This document shows, piece by piece, positions 271 to 8,257 of a DNA stretch of 8,257 bases. Position numbers and translations under genes: made by a program. The DNA is from Candidatus Mcinerneyibacteriota bacterium (lineage in GTDB: Bacteria > AUK180 > JAQVHJ01): the NCBI GenBank assembly GCA_030630935.1, contig DAOVMD010000117.1:1-8257 (forward strand), written 5' to 3'. The number at the start of each line of letters is the position of its first letter. Position 1 is the first letter of the stretch. The notes under the pieces were generated by a model. It was not told the origin of the DNA. It did no database searches and saw only the letters and a list, made by a program, of their open reading frames with translations.

Positions 271-291
271 TTATATATGAATTTTAAAAAC

Positions 292-297
292 AGGAGG
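292..297 (+). promoter_or_regulatory. Shine-Dalgarno site that fixes the start of the PDZ protein
   Basis: AGGAGG ends 6 bases before ATG 304. The longer in-frame ATG at 277 coincides with the predicted transcription start, so it would have no leader and no binding site. The ATG at 304 also puts the signal peptide at the very N-terminus, so 304 is the better start. Confidence 0.85.
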
Positions 298-303
298 ATA
301 GAT

Positions 304-1908
304 ATGAAAAGCAAGGCCATGATTGGTTTATTATTTGTTTTCATATTAGTTTCGTTATTCAGCGGCGCGGTTTATTCTGAGATAGAGTTTTTGAAGGAAG
401 CAGAAGATGAAGATGAAGATGAAGGTATTTTGATTGTAGGTTTTAAAGAAAACTCTGTATTAAAGTTTGCCGGGGCTGAAGTTGGAGACTGGTTAGTAAC
501 CTATAATGGAGTACCAGTAAAATCTATTAAGCATTTAGGTAAACTGAAAAAGAGGGTCAAGACAGATAAGGTGGAGGTTGTCGTTCTTAGAGGTAAAGAA
601 GAAATCAAATTGACTATTTGTAAAGGTTTTCTTGGTGTATTTCTAACGGAGGAAGAGATGAAATCAGAAGGAGTAATAATAACTGGATTTCCGAAGAAAT
701 CTGAAATGAAGAAAGCCGGGGCTGAAGCCGGAGATAAATTAGTTATGTATAACAAGCAAAAAGTTTTATCTGTTGAACATTTGGATGTACTAAAAGTTCT
801 GGTTAAGACAGATAATGTAGAAGTTATAGTAAGCCGTGGAGGGAAAGAAATTCCTTTAACTATCCCGAAGGGATTCCTTGGGATATATTTAAAGGATATT
901 GTTCCTGAACACAAGCGGGATAAGGATGCAGTAATAATTGATGGACTCGGAAAACTTGAATGGGCAAGTGGAATGGAGAATTCCTTCCTCGCTTGTTTAT
1001 ATTTATTGGATCAGAAGTTCGGGCAAAAAATTTCTTATATTGATATTCTTGGTTTATCAGGATATGGTTTCAGATTTGCATTCCATAAAGATTTATGTCC
1101 CAGTTCTCCGGATGCAACAGTCCCCAGAGATATTGGCTCTGAAATAATGGAAAAACTTGGTTATGAATTCGAATATGTGTTTGCTGATTCATTCAAGCAT
1201 GCCGGAAAGAATAAGAAGTCAAAAGAAGATATGCGTAAGATGATTACAAAGAGTATAGATAACGGCTGGCCTGTTATCGCAATTGACCTTATCGAAGTCG
1301 CTGAATGGGGACTTATCACCGGTTATCAGAAAAAGGGAGCAGAATTATTTTGCAGAACTTATTTTGATAAAACTGAAGGTTATGAGATTGCAGAGAAATT
1401 CCCATGGATCATTGTTATTATTAAAAGCAAAAAGAAAGTCGACTTAGCTCCTCTTTATAGAGAATCCCTTAAAGTTGCGAAAGAACTTTATAATACAAAA
1501 AAATATAAAGACTATTATTCTGGACTCGCTGCATCAAAATATTGGATTGAGTTTCTACAGAAAAAGAAGAATTTCCGCGGTAAAAAAAGTGTACGATATG
1601 AGAAAATGCATGCTAATTGGTGGATATATATAAGCCTGCTTAAAGCACGAGGGTTAAATGCAAAATACCTATCCAATAATAAAGAAAAATTCGGTGTGCA
1701 TGTGCCAAGTATTGAAATACTGTCAGAACTTTGTAAAAAAGAAGCTGAGCTACTCAAGAAAGGAACCAAAGAAGTTCCTTCCCGATGGGAACATAAAAGC
1801 CCAAAGGTCTGGACTCAAGAAAAAAGAAATGAACAGGCAAAAACCATTCATGAATTTCTTAGGCTTGAGCATGAGATCAATAAGTTCCTTATTGAGCTCA
1901 CAAAATAA
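304..1908 (+). CDS. Secreted tandem-PDZ protein with BtrH/C39-like domain
   Basis: This is a protein of 534 residues numbered from ATG 304; start choice rests on AGGAGG at 292-297. Residues 1-25 form a signal peptide with a likely cut after VYS and no lipobox cysteine, so a periplasmic or extracellular location is inferred. An acidic run (EDEDEDE) follows. Two PDZ-like units (about 38-115 and 116-190) share the AGAEVGD/AGAEAGD core and KGFLG at an 82-residue spacing. They are an internal duplication that still keeps the identical 12-base string GCCGGGGCTGAA (469-480, 715-726). Residues about 207-376 resemble the BtrH-type papain/C39-like fold: a Cys at 231, GLSGYGFRF (250-258), CPSSPD (265-270), EWGLITGY (334-341) and RTYFD (351-355). 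In C39-like enzymes a His starts the strand before GY; here it is Glu-Trp, so peptidase activity is doubtful. Residues 377-534 are mostly helical. The family is a recalled resemblance; substrate and role are unknown. Confidence 0.75.
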   Translation: MKSKAMIGLLFVFILVSLFSGAVYSEIEFLKEAEDEDEDEGILIVGFKENSVLKFAGAEVGDWLVTYNGVPVKSIKHLGKLKKRVKTDKVEVVVLRGKEEIKLTICKGFLGVFLTEEEMKSEGVIITGFPKKSEMKKAGAEAGDKLVMYNKQKVLSVEHLDVLKVLVKTDNVEVIVSRGGKEIPLTIPKGFLGIYLKDIVPEHKRDKDAVIIDGLGKLEWASGMENSFLACLYLLDQKFGQKISYIDILGLSGYGFRFAFHKDLCPSSPDATVPRDIGSEIMEKLGYEFEYVFADSFKHAGKNKKSKEDMRKMITKSIDNGWPVIAIDLIEVAEWGLITGYQKKGAELFCRTYFDKTEGYEIAEKFPWIIVIIKSKKKVDLAPLYRESLKVAKELYNTKKYKDYYSGLAASKYWIEFLQKKKNFRGKKSVRYEKMHANWWIYISLLKARGLNAKYLSNNKEKFGVHVPSIEILSELCKKEAELLKKGTKEVPSRWEHKSPKVWTQEKRNEQAKTIHEFLRLEHEINKFLIELTK

Positions 1909-2817: not shown

Positions 2818-3213
2818 TTATTTTTCTTTCTTTTTCTCAGGTCTAAAACCTATCTTCCTTTTTTTTATTTTATTTTGATTACCAAGCATTTTTCTAAATG
2901 CTTCAAATACAATTTGAAATTGCTTATCGTATTTTTCTTCTAATTTAGCGATTTTTTCTTGCAAGTCTTTATAAGATAAAGAAAATTCATGGAGTTTTAA
3001 AAATGTTCTCATTATCTCAATATTTACAATAATCGCTTTTTCACTTTTTAACACACTTGATAACATTGCAATACCTTGCTCTGTAAATACATAGGGCAGA
3101 TACTTACGATGCTGACCCTTTCCATGATTCTTTAAGGTCACAATTTGTGACCTTAAAGAATTTTCTTCGTCTTTAGTAAGCTGAAACATAAAATCATCAG
3201 GGAAACACGGAAT
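2818..3213 (-). pseudogene. 5'-truncated ORF6N-domain protein
   Basis: From ATG at 3189 the frame gives 123 residues that match the middle and C-terminal parts of ORF6N (phage-type DNA-binding, KilA-N related) proteins: MFQLTKDE, LRSQIVTLK, the signature YLPYVFTEQGIAMLSSVLKS, IVNIEIMRTFLKL, then a coiled-coil LEEKYDKQFQIVFEAFRKM and a basic tail KRKIGFRPEKKK. The homology runs on upstream of that ATG: eight codons to 3213 read IPCFPDDF, as in the family's RFPDDF, before an in-frame TAA at 3214-3216. The N-terminal part of the ORF6N domain, usually some 45 residues, is missing. I see no ribosome binding site or promoter. It is therefore a decayed gene whose break lies about 50 bases from a repeat cluster. 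A short translated remnant starting at 3189 remains possible. Confidence 0.75.
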
Positions 3214-3263: not shown

Positions 3264-3420
3264 CAGGGCTTCCCGCCGGAAGCCCCTACTTTGTTTGGGA
3301 TACAATGCTTTGGTCTTCGGAGACCACGAGATTGCCACGTCATTCACTTCGTTCAATTCTCGCAATGACAATCAAATGTTTCACTTCATAAGGATTAGTC
3401 GACTGGCAGGAAGCCCAATC
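3264..3420. repeat. REP-like repeat cluster, left of the radical SAM gene
   Basis: Three structures lie in a row. The hairpin GGGCTTCC-CGCC-GGAAGCCC spans 3266-3285. The hairpin TGGTCT-TCGG-AGACCA spans 3311-3326. A unit from GAGATTGCCACGTC (3328) to CGCAATGACAATC (3373) has inner complementarity ATTGC/GCAAT and GTCATT/AATGAC. A further GGAAGCCC at 3409-3416 repeats 3278-3285. The GAGATTGCC...GCAATGAC pattern is one I recall as a dispersed repeat in many uncultured diderm genomes. CAATGACAATCAAATGTTT (3363-3381) recurs at 4717-4735 with two changes. An ORF across this cluster (3259-3441, plus) is spurious. The last few codons of the radical SAM gene run into it. Confidence 0.7.
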
Positions 3421-4663
3421 GCGTGGCTACTTGTACATTAATTTCTTCTACTGTTTTTTCTTCTGGTTTATCAATGAAGTTTACTGCTATCATGCATGGG
3501 CCGCATTGTGTTCTGAAGTTTAGTTTGAAGAATTTTTTACTGATATAGCTTTTTAATTTTGAGAAATCGTTATTTTTATGTAGTTTATAAATTGAAGTAT
3601 TCTGGATATTATTTAAAATTTCGACTATATCGGAATCTATTATACTCCCGAAGCTTGCTGTTTTATTGAATATCCAGCAGCATGGGGTTACGAGATAATC
3701 AGTTTTTATCCACAAGGTGAGTGGTTTCAGAATAAAATTGCATTTTTTAGGAACATTTTTTGGTTTTACATCATACTGTGTTTTTAATGATATGCCCTTT
3801 TCGAACAGAAGTTTTACGTCCGATTTTTTCAAGATAAATCCCTGGTTATCCCCTACTCTTTCCGGAATTCCGAGGTTAATCTTTGATACCCCGTATTCTT
3901 TTAATAGCCTTAGAAATTCAGGGATATACTTAATATTTTTCTCTGTAAGGATAGACTGTACTTCAACCGTTCCAAAATCTTTTGTAAATGTTTTAATAAT
4001 ATTAATATTTTTTCTATATAGATCTGGAGATTTCCTGAATTCATCATGATCCGGACCAATCCCGTCAATGCTCAATACTAACTTTTTAAATCCTGATTTT
4101 GCAAGGAGTTTAATAAACTCCAGGTAATTAGCGAATTTCTTTTCTCCAATCTGGAATGGATCTTCTGATCCCCACCATCCGTTTGTAAAGAGAGATAAAT
4201 TTAGGTCTTCTTTTTTTGAAAGGAACTCAAGAAGCGGAATGAATTTACTATATAAAGTTGGTTCACCCCCGGTAAACAGGAAGTCTCTAATATCAATATC
4301 GATGCAATCATTTATTACGCCCCTGGTGATTTCAAAGTCAAGTGGGGTATCAATTTTTCTATATTGAAGATAACAATGGCAGCAACCCAAGTTGCATTCA
4401 TGAGTTAATTCAAATTTAATTTCTTTAATTCTTGCAGTGGGGTTATGTTTTTTTATAAGTTTCTTATATTCCTTCGTATTACCGAGGTTTTTATCATCAA
4501 CCGCTACAACTAATTTTTTAAGAAGCAGGAAATCATCTTCAAATAATTGAAATTCCGATTCAGGAATAACAATCTCCCTCAAAATTTTTTTATATTGTTT
4601 ATTTAACTTCTTCTGTTTTTTAAGGTATGTATAACCCGTTGTAGTAAGTAGATATGTTTTCAT
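3395..4663 (-). CDS. Radical SAM protein with SPASM/twitch-like C-terminus
   Basis: A protein of 422 residues. C90, C94 and C97 (ECNLGCCHC, with an extra C95) form the CX3CX2C loop that binds the 4Fe-4S cluster and S-adenosylmethionine. FTGGEPTLY (130-138) is the GGE motif, and LVLSIDGIGPDHDEFR (195-210) is the strand and helix typical of SPASM-type enzymes. Later cysteines C308, C328, C329, C387 and C390 (CGPC) fit an auxiliary cluster in a SPASM or twitch domain. Residues 1-77 are an unassigned helical N-terminal extension. Such enzymes often modify ribosomal peptides or mature other proteins. I find no precursor peptide, transporter or partner gene beside it, so the substrate is unknown. 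It stands alone between two REP-like clusters; the final ten or so residues (ATRLGFLPVD) are coded by repeat-derived DNA, so the C-terminus may have been changed by insertion. The ribosome binding site is weak (AAAAGAGA). Confidence 0.85.
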   Translation of the reverse strand: MKTYLLTTTGYTYLKKQKKLNKQYKKILREIVIPESEFQLFEDDFLLLKKLVVAVDDKNLGNTKEYKKLIKKHNPTARIKEIKFELTHECNLGCCHCYLQYRKIDTPLDFEITRGVINDCIDIDIRDFLFTGGEPTLYSKFIPLLEFLSKKEDLNLSLFTNGWWGSEDPFQIGEKKFANYLEFIKLLAKSGFKKLVLSIDGIGPDHDEFRKSPDLYRKNINIIKTFTKDFGTVEVQSILTEKNIKYIPEFLRLLKEYGVSKINLGIPERVGDNQGFILKKSDVKLLFEKGISLKTQYDVKPKNVPKKCNFILKPLTLWIKTDYLVTPCCWIFNKTASFGSIIDSDIVEILNNIQNTSIYKLHKNNDFSKLKSYISKKFFKLNFRTQCGPCMIAVNFIDKPEEKTVEEINVQVATRLGFLPVD

Positions 4664-4850: not shown

Positions 4851-7745
4851 TTAGTCAACGGTTACCATTACTTTTCTTTTTAATTTCACACCATTGGTTG
4901 TATAAATAACGGCTCCGACTTCATCGGTTCTGAAAATATTGATCTTTAACTTTTTATATTCCGGGAACAGAAAATCTTTCAAGTCTTCTTCCTTGTTTCT
5001 ATTTCTACCCCTTGAATCAAACTGTAATACGGCATCGAGAGGTTTTGCAGCGTGGAGTAATTCGAGGCATATTGCCTTTTTTTCGCCCTTATAGGGAACC
5101 GTGATAACGTCAGTTTCAGTAATAACGCCTTTCGTTACGAGTTCTAACTGAATATCCTTTCCTACATCGCTTAAGAGTAAAAATGACTTTTTCTTCAAGT
5201 ATTCTTTAGTTTCCTTATTAGGTTTTACTCCATAAACAACGTTAATGATAATTGATTTATTTGACAGCTCATCTCTTGCGCCGGTGAATTCAGAGTCTTT
5301 TGGATTCAGACAATAAATCTCCAATTCCTTAATCATCTTCCCTGACCGATGGAATTCATGTACAATAAACTCGCCATATTTTAGAGTTCTGCTTGGGATT
5401 TGTTTCTCTCTAATTAGTTTCAACAAAGAAATATACTGGTCATAATAATCCATGACCCACCATTTCTCTTTATTTTTAACATAGTAATCATTTTTTATTA
5501 ACTCCAGGAATTCGTCATAAGAAAGGTCAGCATGGAACTTTTCCTTATCAAGCGGGAGGAGTACATTTTTCACATTCATATTTTTAATAATTGTATGAAC
5601 TCCGGAGGTATTTTCTTTATTCAAGTTTGTAACCACGAGATAATCAATTGTTTTAATATTCATCTTCAGTAGTGTTGGGATAATAGTTTTTTCTGCAACG
5701 TCCCATTCCTGAGGAATTCCATCCTTCATATATTTATAATGAAGTCCTGCATCGATTAATATCCTTTTCTTGAGTGGAGTTTGTATAAAGACCGCATTCG
5801 ATCTCCCGACTGAGAAGAAGAGCACTTTTAATCTTGGAGTTTGCGGTTTAATAAAGAATACACTAATAAATATAACAACGACCACCGATGCAATCACTGA
5901 AATTAAAATCTTTCTTGATCTCTTCGGATAATTTCTGAATGAAACAACAATATTAAAATAGTATTTCTTCAAGTTCCCAATCACGAAATCCTTCCAAATA
6001 AATCCAGCTATTAACAGGTAATATATTGCAATCGCCGGTCCTGAAGGTTTAATCACGTGCGGGTATGGAAAGATTAAGGTTGCGACATGAGCCAGCCACA
6101 GGAAGAATTTACAGAAGAGGTAGTTTCCTGCATTCAGGAGCAGAGCAACGGATAAGCCTATTTTGGGGATAAGTCCAAATACTCCGGCTAAAATTCCCAG
6201 CTGAACATTCACCCCGATTAAGGGGATTGCGAGGAAGTTTGCATACGCTCCGGCAATCGGGTATCTCCCGAAATAGAATGCTGACAATGGAATCATCATT
6301 CCTAATTGAATTGCGAACTGTGCTCCGATAAATCCTCCAAGCCAGCCCGGGATTCTTCTGAATGAAAAGCCCAGCATAGGATTTGATTTTTGAATTTTCT
6401 CCCCGACTACCCAGATCCCTGCTGCTGCAGTCAGGAAAACAATGAACCATAGTATTGTAAAGAAGCTATTCTGCAGAATGATAATCATTGCCGTAAACAG
6501 AACGGTAATCACAATTCCCGCGATGAATCTATACCCTACAAGTTTCGTATTCAGGATTTCCATCACCGGCGGTGTTAAAAGTACCAGTGATAATACTGCC
6601 CCGAACGACAGGGTAAACGATGCTTCCACAACTACTCGCGGAGTAAACATAAGAATTAATGCCGCTGCTGCTGCGATACCTGTCATAATTGATGCCCGGA
6701 GTCCGGACTTTGTAAGAGCGTAAGTGGCAAGAATTAATGAGTTCATTATTGCAGCTCTAATTGTTGAAGGCCGGCCACCTGTAATTATTGTAAATAACAG
6801 TAGGAAAAATATAATTATAAAGGGGAATACTTTTCGTGGTAACTTAAACATTGCGAAAATTCCCCAGAACATGACCGTAATAATTGTAACATGTAATCCT
6901 GAGACTGCAAGAACATGGTTCACTCCGGAATGTTTAAATTCCTCTTCAATTAATGTTTCAGAGCCTTCCAGGTACATTTTTCTAATCCCATATCTCAAAC
7001 CCAATGTTACCCCGCCAAGAAATGCAGATTCGGGATACGGAATAGTTTTCCTGATAGTTACGAGCATATTCTCTTTTAACTTTAATGCAAGCTTAATTAT
7101 GGGATTCCCTTTCTCTGTCCCCAGTTTCAGGATTGCACCTGGGTCTCTAATAAACATCTGCGAATATATATTCGATGCGCGGAGGAATTTTGCATAATTA
7201 AATCCACCCGGATTCTCTGCGGGTCGGGGGTTTACAAGTTGCCCGGTAATTCGAACTTTATCATAGAAATATATCTTTCCATAATATTGATTACCTGGAT
7301 AAATATAGACCTGTACCTTACCCTTTCCGTTTATTTTTATCTCTTTATTATCCTGTATGAGTAAGTATGGTTTAACCCTGATTGTAACCTTGTCACGTTG
7401 AATCGTAGGTTCGTCAACAACGACCCCTTCAATTGTAACTGAGTCTTTCGGTTTAAATTCACCAAAACCGGAAAGGTGATTCTCAGGAATTCTATTCTGG
7501 AATTGAAAATTCAGAATTGCAATTATGAAACCTATCGAAATCAAAATAAAATTCAAGTATTTTTTTGAGAAATAATGATATTTCCTATGTTGAAGAAAGC
7601 CGAGTACAATCGCTGTGATCAAGACGATTGAAAACAATGCGATTGCAATTAATAAGACCGGGGCAACTTCAATAAACGCATAAGAAAATGCAATCCCAAC
7701 TACAAAAGCTGCACATAAAACAATCAGAAGTTTTTCCCAGTTCAT
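4851..7745 (-). CDS. comEC: ComEC/Rec2 DNA-uptake channel with degenerate MBL-like domain
   Basis: Full-length ComEC (964 residues) of the inner membrane, which carries single-stranded DNA into the cell during transformation. Residues 1-82 hold about three membrane spans, and 97-200 form the OB-like DUF4131 region ending in the typical NPGGFNYAKFLRA (178-190). The competence domain spans about 235-590 with many spans and the motifs HSGVNHVLAVSGLHV (272-286) and GGRPSTIRAAIM (323-334). One more span (612-632) leads to an MBL-like domain (637-964). There LIDAG (663-667) is kept, but FFSVGRSNA (643-651) replaces the usual DVGQGDA, TNLNKEN (706-712) replaces THxHxDH, and VPYKG (883-887) replaces the HHG region; only the Asp of LLLSD (856-860) is retained. 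The domain is expected to be inactive as a metallo-nuclease. It is the last gene of an operon: its ATG comes 2 bases after the stop of the small gene upstream, and its own ribosome binding site is weak, suggesting translational coupling. Confidence 0.93.
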   Translation of the reverse strand: MNWEKLLIVLCAAFVVGIAFSYAFIEVAPVLLIAIALFSIVLITAIVLGFLQHRKYHYFSKKYLNFILISIGFIIAILNFQFQNRIPENHLSGFGEFKPKDSVTIEGVVVDEPTIQRDKVTIRVKPYLLIQDNKEIKINGKGKVQVYIYPGNQYYGKIYFYDKVRITGQLVNPRPAENPGGFNYAKFLRASNIYSQMFIRDPGAILKLGTEKGNPIIKLALKLKENMLVTIRKTIPYPESAFLGGVTLGLRYGIRKMYLEGSETLIEEEFKHSGVNHVLAVSGLHVTIITVMFWGIFAMFKLPRKVFPFIIIFFLLLFTIITGGRPSTIRAAIMNSLILATYALTKSGLRASIMTGIAAAAALILMFTPRVVVEASFTLSFGAVLSLVLLTPPVMEILNTKLVGYRFIAGIVITVLFTAMIIILQNSFFTILWFIVFLTAAAGIWVVGEKIQKSNPMLGFSFRRIPGWLGGFIGAQFAIQLGMMIPLSAFYFGRYPIAGAYANFLAIPLIGVNVQLGILAGVFGLIPKIGLSVALLLNAGNYLFCKFFLWLAHVATLIFPYPHVIKPSGPAIAIYYLLIAGFIWKDFVIGNLKKYYFNIVVSFRNYPKRSRKILISVIASVVVVIFISVFFIKPQTPRLKVLFFSVGRSNAVFIQTPLKKRILIDAGLHYKYMKDGIPQEWDVAEKTIIPTLLKMNIKTIDYLVVTNLNKENTSGVHTIIKNMNVKNVLLPLDKEKFHADLSYDEFLELIKNDYYVKNKEKWWVMDYYDQYISLLKLIREKQIPSRTLKYGEFIVHEFHRSGKMIKELEIYCLNPKDSEFTGARDELSNKSIIINVVYGVKPNKETKEYLKKKSFLLLSDVGKDIQLELVTKGVITETDVITVPYKGEKKAICLELLHAAKPLDAVLQFDSRGRNRNKEEDLKDFLFPEYKKLKINIFRTDEVGAVIYTTNGVKLKRKVMVTVD

Positions 7746-7909: not shown

Positions 7910-8257
7910 TTAGAATTTTAATGATAAATATGCCCTATAAGTTTCTTCAGGCAGTTTGTCTTTGTTCCTAAGTGATCCTTCTTCAATATAATCTCTTTTC
8001 TTATATGCGAGAGTATATTTCAGATGTCTTCTGAAAAGATAATGTTCCAGCCTGAACTGATAGTCAACATACTCTTCATAAGAAGAATTATCCTGTTTTC
8101 TGTAAAGGTTGTCATCATTATATTTAAGTTCTGTGATGAACTTCAGGTCCTTAATAGGAGTATAAGTCATTTTCATCCTGTAGTAATTATTTTTCTTATA
8201 TTCAGGTGAAGAAGATTCAACATACTGTTTCAAACGATACTTAAAGGAATATTTAAT
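7910..8257 (-). CDS. C-terminal part of an outer-membrane beta-barrel-like protein (partial)
   Basis: The frame is open to the window edge, so the gene starts further right; 115 residues are visible. A TTG at 8231-8233 is not a credible start because the same strand pattern continues before it (IKYSFKYRL). The chain shows alternating polar and hydrophobic/aromatic residues in paired strands joined by charged turns: YYRMKMTY, LKFITELKY, DYQFRLEHYLF, LKYTLAYKKRDY and finally YRAYLSLKF. A final Phe is the usual end of proteins folded by the BAM machinery. It is the first gene of the comEC operon visible here and its stop is 9 bases from the next start. In some Bacteroidetes-like lineages large barrels with N-terminal helix-hairpin-helix DNA-binding repeats exist; whether this one has them lies outside the window. 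Confidence 0.7.
   Translation of the reverse strand: MKYSFKYRLKQYVESSSPEYKKNNYYRMKMTYTPIKDLKFITELKYNDDNLYRKQDNSSYEEYVDYQFRLEHYLFRRHLKYTLAYKKRDYIEEGSLRNKDKLPEETYRAYLSLKF

Follow-up and report, generated by a model that had tools for sequence, protein, structure and literature searches.

The metal ligands of motif II in the metallo-beta-lactamase (MBL)-like nuclease domain of ComEC have been assigned roles (PMC12455585, PMC8579336). Alanine substitution at H598, D602, H603 or D700 leaves the domain with virtually no activity in vitro, and the mutations that lower nuclease activity, the S728 equivalent excepted, abolish transformation in Legionella (PMC12455585). A loop of the same domain was proposed to split the duplex and guide the strands in canonical ComEC, and a double mutant of this loop abolishes transformation (PMC12455585). 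An MBL domain is absent from almost half of the known ComECs, and it is a stated open question how bacteria whose ComEC has no active one dispose of the non-transforming strand (PMC8579336). Here, we analyse a comEC gene in a stretch of 8,257 nucleotides (the window) from a Candidatus Mcinerneyibacteriota bacterium. The window is contig C241 (DAOVMD010000117.1) of the metagenome-assembled genome (MAG) G000 (3.16 Mb, 471 contigs, ~80% complete). With a probability of roughly 0.62, we propose that this protein represents an ancient subfamily of ComECs whose MBL domain is a retained pseudo-nuclease, a non-catalytic part of the channel mouth, while cutting is done by a separate exported MBL protein. 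The gene and its domains, including an oligonucleotide-binding (OB) fold, are laid out as follows:

4851..7745, minus strand: comEC, an open reading frame of 964 amino acids (aa) with DUF4131/OB fold, Competence channel and degenerate MBL domain.
7140..7646, minus strand: OB-fold (DUF4131) domain, residues 34-202 (Pfam PF13567, E 8e-24).
5946..6950, minus strand: Competence channel domain, about residues 266-600 (Pfam PF03772, E 6e-38; right-hand limit approximate).
4854..5837, minus strand: degenerate MBL-like domain, residues 637-964 (AlphaFold2 model and structural match to 9ic4).

The gene is one full-length reading frame with zero internal stops. The matches to the Competence domain (PF03772, 131 bits) and to the OB fold before it (PF13567, 85 bits) are both above cut-off, and the match to Lactamase_B is weak, under the cut-off and confined to residues 647-707. 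With the NCBI equivalog model TIGR00361 (ComEC_Rec2), the protein scores 117 bits, below the curated cut-off of 190; it was filed as a divergent ComEC subfamily and not as that equivalog.

The ligands were mapped by alignment to canonical ComEC domains, read with the numbering of the M. glycerini BLACT domain (PMC12455585):

5796..5813, minus strand: former DVGQGD, now SVGRSN, residues 645-650 (S645, N650), from the alignment with canonical ComECs.
5610..5630, minus strand: former motif II (T-H-x-D/H-x-D-H), now TNLNKEN, residues 706-712, with all four ligands replaced.
5262..5264, minus strand: former motif III Asn, now S828, from the ligand map.
5166..5168, minus strand: motif IV Asp, kept as D860 (equivalent to D700), from the ligand map.
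5085..5093, minus strand: former motif V HHG, now Y885-K886-G887, from the alignment with canonical ComECs.

Motif II has thus changed from H598 to N707, D600 to N709, D602 to E711 and H603 to N712 (M. glycerini residue first). The motif V residue H725 has become Y885, the adjacent His K886, and S728 E888, and the motif I Asp is kept as D665. The original prediction, made from the DNA alone, had stated that nearly all metal ligands were lost in a full-length, in-frame domain, and the alignment confirms TNLNKEN, SVGRSN and YKG with no stop codon. Two details needed refinement: the signature it gave as THxHxDH reads HxDxDH or HxHxDH as motif II of ComEC, and its range of 5090-5820 leaves out the beginning of the motif V change (5085-5093). 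An assembly or base-calling error was rejected, as a second MAG of the same family (G001, 69% identical protein) reads TNLSREN, SVGRSN and PYKG.

Since the replaced positions match those of the published inactivating mutants, an active two-metal nuclease is very unlikely in the window, and the domain would be expected to be catalytically dead in vitro. No His or Cys is invariant in the MBL domain within the alignment of the window's class, and thus no other conserved metal site is apparent. The residues that are invariant within the class include many aromatic and polar ones, among them N650 and N712 at former ligand sites. One may still imagine a slow nuclease binding metal via D665, E711, D860 and Asn; Silale et al. 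thought likewise possible for the pneumococcal domain, and the conservative changes of S. pneumoniae may leave metal binding (PMC8579336). The window does keep the Asp of motifs I and IV, and Glu for Asp is the commonest motif II change. However, the His of motif II are all gone, those of motif V are gone in the window, and D860 varies even within the class (G006 has Ala), which together with the lack of any invariant His or Cys leaves this explanation only a faint chance.

The fold, by contrast with the ligands, was retained. An AlphaFold2 model of the MBL domain (residues 629-964, with 22 relatives from genome contigs as input) has a predicted local distance difference test (pLDDT) score of 88.8 and a predicted template modelling (pTM) score of 0.90. 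Its top Foldseek match is the ComEC nuclease domain 9ic4 (E 1e-22), to which VIA-align superposes 264 of 266 residues (Z 32.3, root-mean-square deviation 2.2); the next-best structural family is pneumococcal Pce/CbpE (Z 27). The model indicates that the MBL fold is kept while the metal site is lost, in line with the fold markers first read in the sequence. Between G000 and G001, which represent two genera, amino acid identity is 66% in the MBL domain, 82% in the channel and 54% in the OB domain. The MBL domain has a proportion of nonsynonymous differences (pN) of 0.20 and of synonymous differences (pS) of 0.85. Because synonymous sites have reached saturation (pS 0.76-0.92 in the large domains), we report pN and pS instead of the numeric dN/dS (ratio of nonsynonymous to synonymous rates) that had been suggested as a check. 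The MBL domain is under purifying selection.

A scan of genome contigs placed the closest relatives of this ComEC in Kiritimatiellota, Verrucomicrobiota, Lentisphaerota, CSSED10-310, Schekmanbacteria, Lindowbacteria, Ozemobacter and Muiribacteriota, in one genome labelled Elusimicrobia and in unnamed MAGs. Motif II is lost in all of the best relatives where it can be read (L062 stops short of it), and the other members of the class show TD...[DE]N at motif II and SL..GN at DVGQGD. The next-ranked, canonical group is intact, save for a few Bacteroidota copies whose MBL region is vestigial or missing. A tree built on the channel region, with MBL columns excluded, separates 35 degenerate rows from 75 others by a fully supported branch; it comes from a quick search, degenerate sequences served as the queries to recruit its rows, and some few among those 75 (e.g., L019, L023, L025, L030) are degenerate independently. 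The tree of the MBL domain concurs, with the degenerate ComECs on one side of a branch marked 97*. Most members of the clade also share an insert of ~30 residues between motif II and the second sheet:

5394..5549, minus strand: clade-specific insert region, residues 733-784 (52 aa here against 21 aa).

This region counts 49-73 residues in most degenerate ComECs and 21 in nearly all canonical ComECs and every separate MBL measured; the exceptions in the degenerate clade are part of the Verrucomicrobiota branch (33 residues) and L064 (7). Judged from these sequences, the ligand loss is an old multi-phylum state and no peculiarity of the window copy. Simple decay of a single copy was rejected in view of a clade-wide state and of a full-length domain under constraint. 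The claim of a retained pseudo-enzyme is supported by the clade-wide loss, the 66% identity at saturated synonymous sites and the kept fold; relatives are not intact at these positions and the copy has no stop codon. Rescue by a second comEC was also rejected: a search of the genome for Competence-family genes found comEC alone in G000 (MAG ~80% complete).

The clade is not uniform. In L070, L071, L072, L075 and L095 (Kiritimatiellota/Verrucomicrobiota), the MBL domain is more eroded and motif II scarcely recognisable; this sub-branch is accompanied by long relatives of 1130-1185 aa, and several of its genomes have a second, canonical-type ComEC. Genome G035 encodes three full-length ComECs (contigs C26, C28 and C33, i.e., L035, L036 and L037), each with a degenerate MBL domain.

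If the degenerate domain does not cut, another protein may do so, and the original prediction had guessed that this job would be done elsewhere. A candidate was found: G000 encodes one strong separate ComEC-type MBL, of 538 aa, on a contig other than that of comEC (C119:4477-6090), in which motifs I-V are intact (DVKQGD, DGG, THPDADHIGG, NDTS, LTGD, GHHGS). The protein has Lactamase_B and three copies of the helix-hairpin-helix domain HHH_3, and matches the ComEA family TIGR01259 with 196 bits (cut-off 152, E 1e-58). Its N-terminus, MKKNIKLLFILLSFIILIPVFTFAG, looks like a signal peptide on reading, without a predictor, and the relative L144 has a lipobox-like site. Every class member has a counterpart, carrying two to four ComEA-type helix-hairpin-helix domains, and in the class its gene is located near pheS. 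The separate MBL would most likely be the transformation nuclease that cuts the non-transforming strand; the guess has gained a candidate, while its cutting role is our inference. A more distant MBL with intact ligands is found on contig C90 of G000 (L170:2339-3547); like its counterpart in G001 (C205, L171:1259-2452), it is lipoprotein-like, has an extra N-terminal domain and lies upstream of uvrC.

The separate MBL tends to occur with degenerate ComECs. Using a profile (A2) built from the separate MBLs of the class, we found a strong separate MBL in 16 of the 17 genomes with degenerate ComEC outside the Kiritimatiellota/Verrucomicrobiota branch and in 4 of the 49 with canonical ComEC (Fisher P 9e-11, uncorrected for kinship). 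For a partly blind test, we ran the MBL profile against 193 genomes and then looked at the ComEC of the ten new genomes that had a separate MBL; it was degenerate in six (G139, G143, G148, G189, G203, G247), without MBL domain in two (G131, G174) and canonical in two (G165, G188). The comparison genomes of this test were canonical by the manner of their listing, and it has thus no blind control. The genes are also linked. At L035, L051, L060 (where the start of the MBL lies at the contig end), L068, L069, L178 and L180, comEC is followed first by a ComEA-type helix-hairpin-helix gene and then by the separate MBL, and at L059 the MBL directly follows comEC. The sister ComECs G035b and L068 have sister separate MBLs in the MBL-domain tree, which suggests co-inheritance.

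These data bear on the alternative that the domain is a remnant, kept merely for the folding of the C-terminus, the strand being displaced or handled by other nucleases and the separate MBL serving, e.g., nutritional DNA degradation. It would explain why conservation is lower in the MBL domain than in the channel (66% vs 82%) and why ligand positions are free to vary over the clade. Yet the OB domain is conserved less well still (54%), the MBL domain is full length in most members of the clade, the insert is retained across phyla, many aromatic and polar residues (N650 and N712 included) are invariant within the class, and the separate MBL is associated with degenerate comEC through gene linkage as well as in the partly blind test. 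We consider a remnant unlikely.

Several observations nevertheless weigh against the proposal of a pseudo-nuclease with a detached partner. The degenerate ComECs form one clade, so their shared ComEC state is itself largely a single event and the Fisher value overstates independence. In G000, the separate MBL lies on a different contig from comEC, near pheS. The MBL adjacent to comEC in G024 is itself degenerate, with two intact MBLs elsewhere in that genome; the genome of L067 is without a strong separate MBL; and a search of the Kiritimatiellota/Verrucomicrobiota branch found none. Several genomes of this branch have a second, canonical-type ComEC (intact in L148, partly altered in L149-L152), and G082 and G148 hold both types. 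Finally, D665, E711 and D860 remain in the window, making weak metal binding conceivable. G002 has a separate MBL and no ComEC was found in this incomplete MAG.

The proposal of a retained pseudo-nuclease builds on the observed ligand loss, fold, clade-wide conservation, insert and purifying selection, and on the presence, linkage and co-inheritance of the separate MBL. The two-metal site would have been mostly lost in the ancestor of the subfamily, with the fold retained and the insert gained. The degenerate domain would then act as a non-catalytic part of the channel mouth, as a strand guide or pin or as a platform for partner proteins. Since the strand-splitting loop of canonical ComEC is needed for transformation, the domain may have a role even without catalysis, and by analogy it could guide DNA. 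The separate, exported and intact MBL would cut the non-transforming strand. Being fused to three ComEA-type domains, the MBL of G000 would keep double-stranded DNA bound in the periplasm as it comes in and cleave one of its strands beside the channel. We more tentatively suggest, at somewhat below even odds, a second general design of DNA importer spread over several phyla, in which a strand-guide ComEC works with a detached homologous nuclease fused to, or encoded beside, a ComEA receptor. DNA binding and strand degradation would in that design occur on one exported protein before the channel, and the detached nuclease may also serve some bacteria with MBL-less ComEC (two of the ten test genomes).

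In the class, comEC is preceded by two genes for barrel-like proteins with ComEA-type helix-hairpin-helix domains (seen in the window, G000:C41, L033, L047, L048 and L049). One is PorV/FadL-like with two C-terminal copies and the other, of 660-670 aa, has N-terminal copies. Part of one is visible in the window:

7910..8257, minus strand: 3' end of the upstream neighbour, a barrel-like protein with N-terminal helix-hairpin-helix domain, cut by the contig end.

This gene matches a hidden Markov model of the outer-membrane-barrel-like family that adjoins comEC in G001, G003, G004 and G006. Contig C41 of G000 (L169:618-4130) overlaps it with 93.8% identity over 337 bp; the two could not be joined exactly upstream, and C41 represents a strain variant. 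From their sequences, the barrel-like neighbours may form an outer-membrane channel or receptor for DNA uptake. In L046 (G024:C20, 160-5000) and L147 (G068:C218), PorV-like genes adjoin a separate MBL in the way that they adjoin comEC in the class, an indirect tie between both gene sets; L046 also has another helix-hairpin-helix gene. DprA was found in 18 of the 18 degenerate-clade genomes searched (weakly in one), and the five class members tested have numerous PilB/PilT-type ATPases, which makes a transformation role of the window ComEC plausible.

This background also matters for the view that the subfamily is a specialised paralogue, e.g., for nucleotide scavenging or export, in which ligand loss reflects a changed substrate. 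Some genomes do carry both ComEC types (L073 with L100; G148), G035 has three degenerate copies, and a second canonical-type copy is frequent in the Kiritimatiellota/Verrucomicrobiota branch. In G000, however, the degenerate protein is the sole ComEC found and is encoded beside ComEA-domain proteins in a genome with DprA and pilus ATPases, and channel motifs such as HVLAVSGLHV are invariant or almost so. A specialised paralogue thus seems quite improbable to us.

Three further genes were noticed in the window. A radical SAM protein is encoded immediately downstream of comEC (3395-4663, minus strand), and a radical SAM-like gene also adjoins comEC in G001 (L033:7322-8515) and not in other class members. 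A gene at 277-1908 (plus strand) encodes a secreted-looking protein of 543 aa with PDZ domains and an uncharacterised C-terminal half. An ORF6N-domain protein without the domain start (2818-3189, minus strand; profile positions 44-86 of 86) is possibly a truncated phage-type gene.

How does this system compare with those described? The window ComEC shares its three-domain order and MBL fold with the canonical proteins of B. subtilis, Moorella and Legionella (PMC8579336, PMC12455585; 9ic4), but differs from active ones in the replaced ligands of motifs II, III and V, the long insert and the predicted non-functional site. The proposed degradation of the strand by a separate nuclease recalls S. 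pneumoniae, with ComEC and EndA (PMC8579336, PMC12455585). Whereas pneumococcal EndA is a membrane-bound nuclease distinct from ComEC, the candidate nuclease is here a homologous MBL that often carries ComEA domains or is found next to them, and the window-type state spans a multi-phylum clade. To our knowledge, EndA is not homologous to the MBL domain. The separate MBL of the class carries the helix-hairpin-helix type of ComEA receptors (TIGR01259, HHH_3), except that receptor and nuclease form one predicted exported polypeptide in the window's class and adjacent genes elsewhere in the clade. An artificial ComEA-MBP-BLACT fusion was built previously (PMC12455585); a natural protein appears to join both functions here. 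A dead nuclease domain that guides DNA beside a homologous active nuclease in another protein resembles RecB/RecC of RecBCD (PMC1185551), although the PD-(D/E)xK fold is unrelated, the pathway is another one, and guiding by ComEC would be an analogy. In the openly accessible literature, we found no clade-wide degenerate ComEC or detached ComEC-type MBL partner beyond the pneumococcal case, and a clade-wide pseudo-nuclease with a homologous detached partner appears to be new. The clade offers a natural pair, a pseudo-nuclease channel and a detached homologous nuclease, making the question of strand removal testable with two proteins and offering a means to tell the structural role of the MBL domain apart from the catalytic one, a distinction that was beyond the reach of published mutants.
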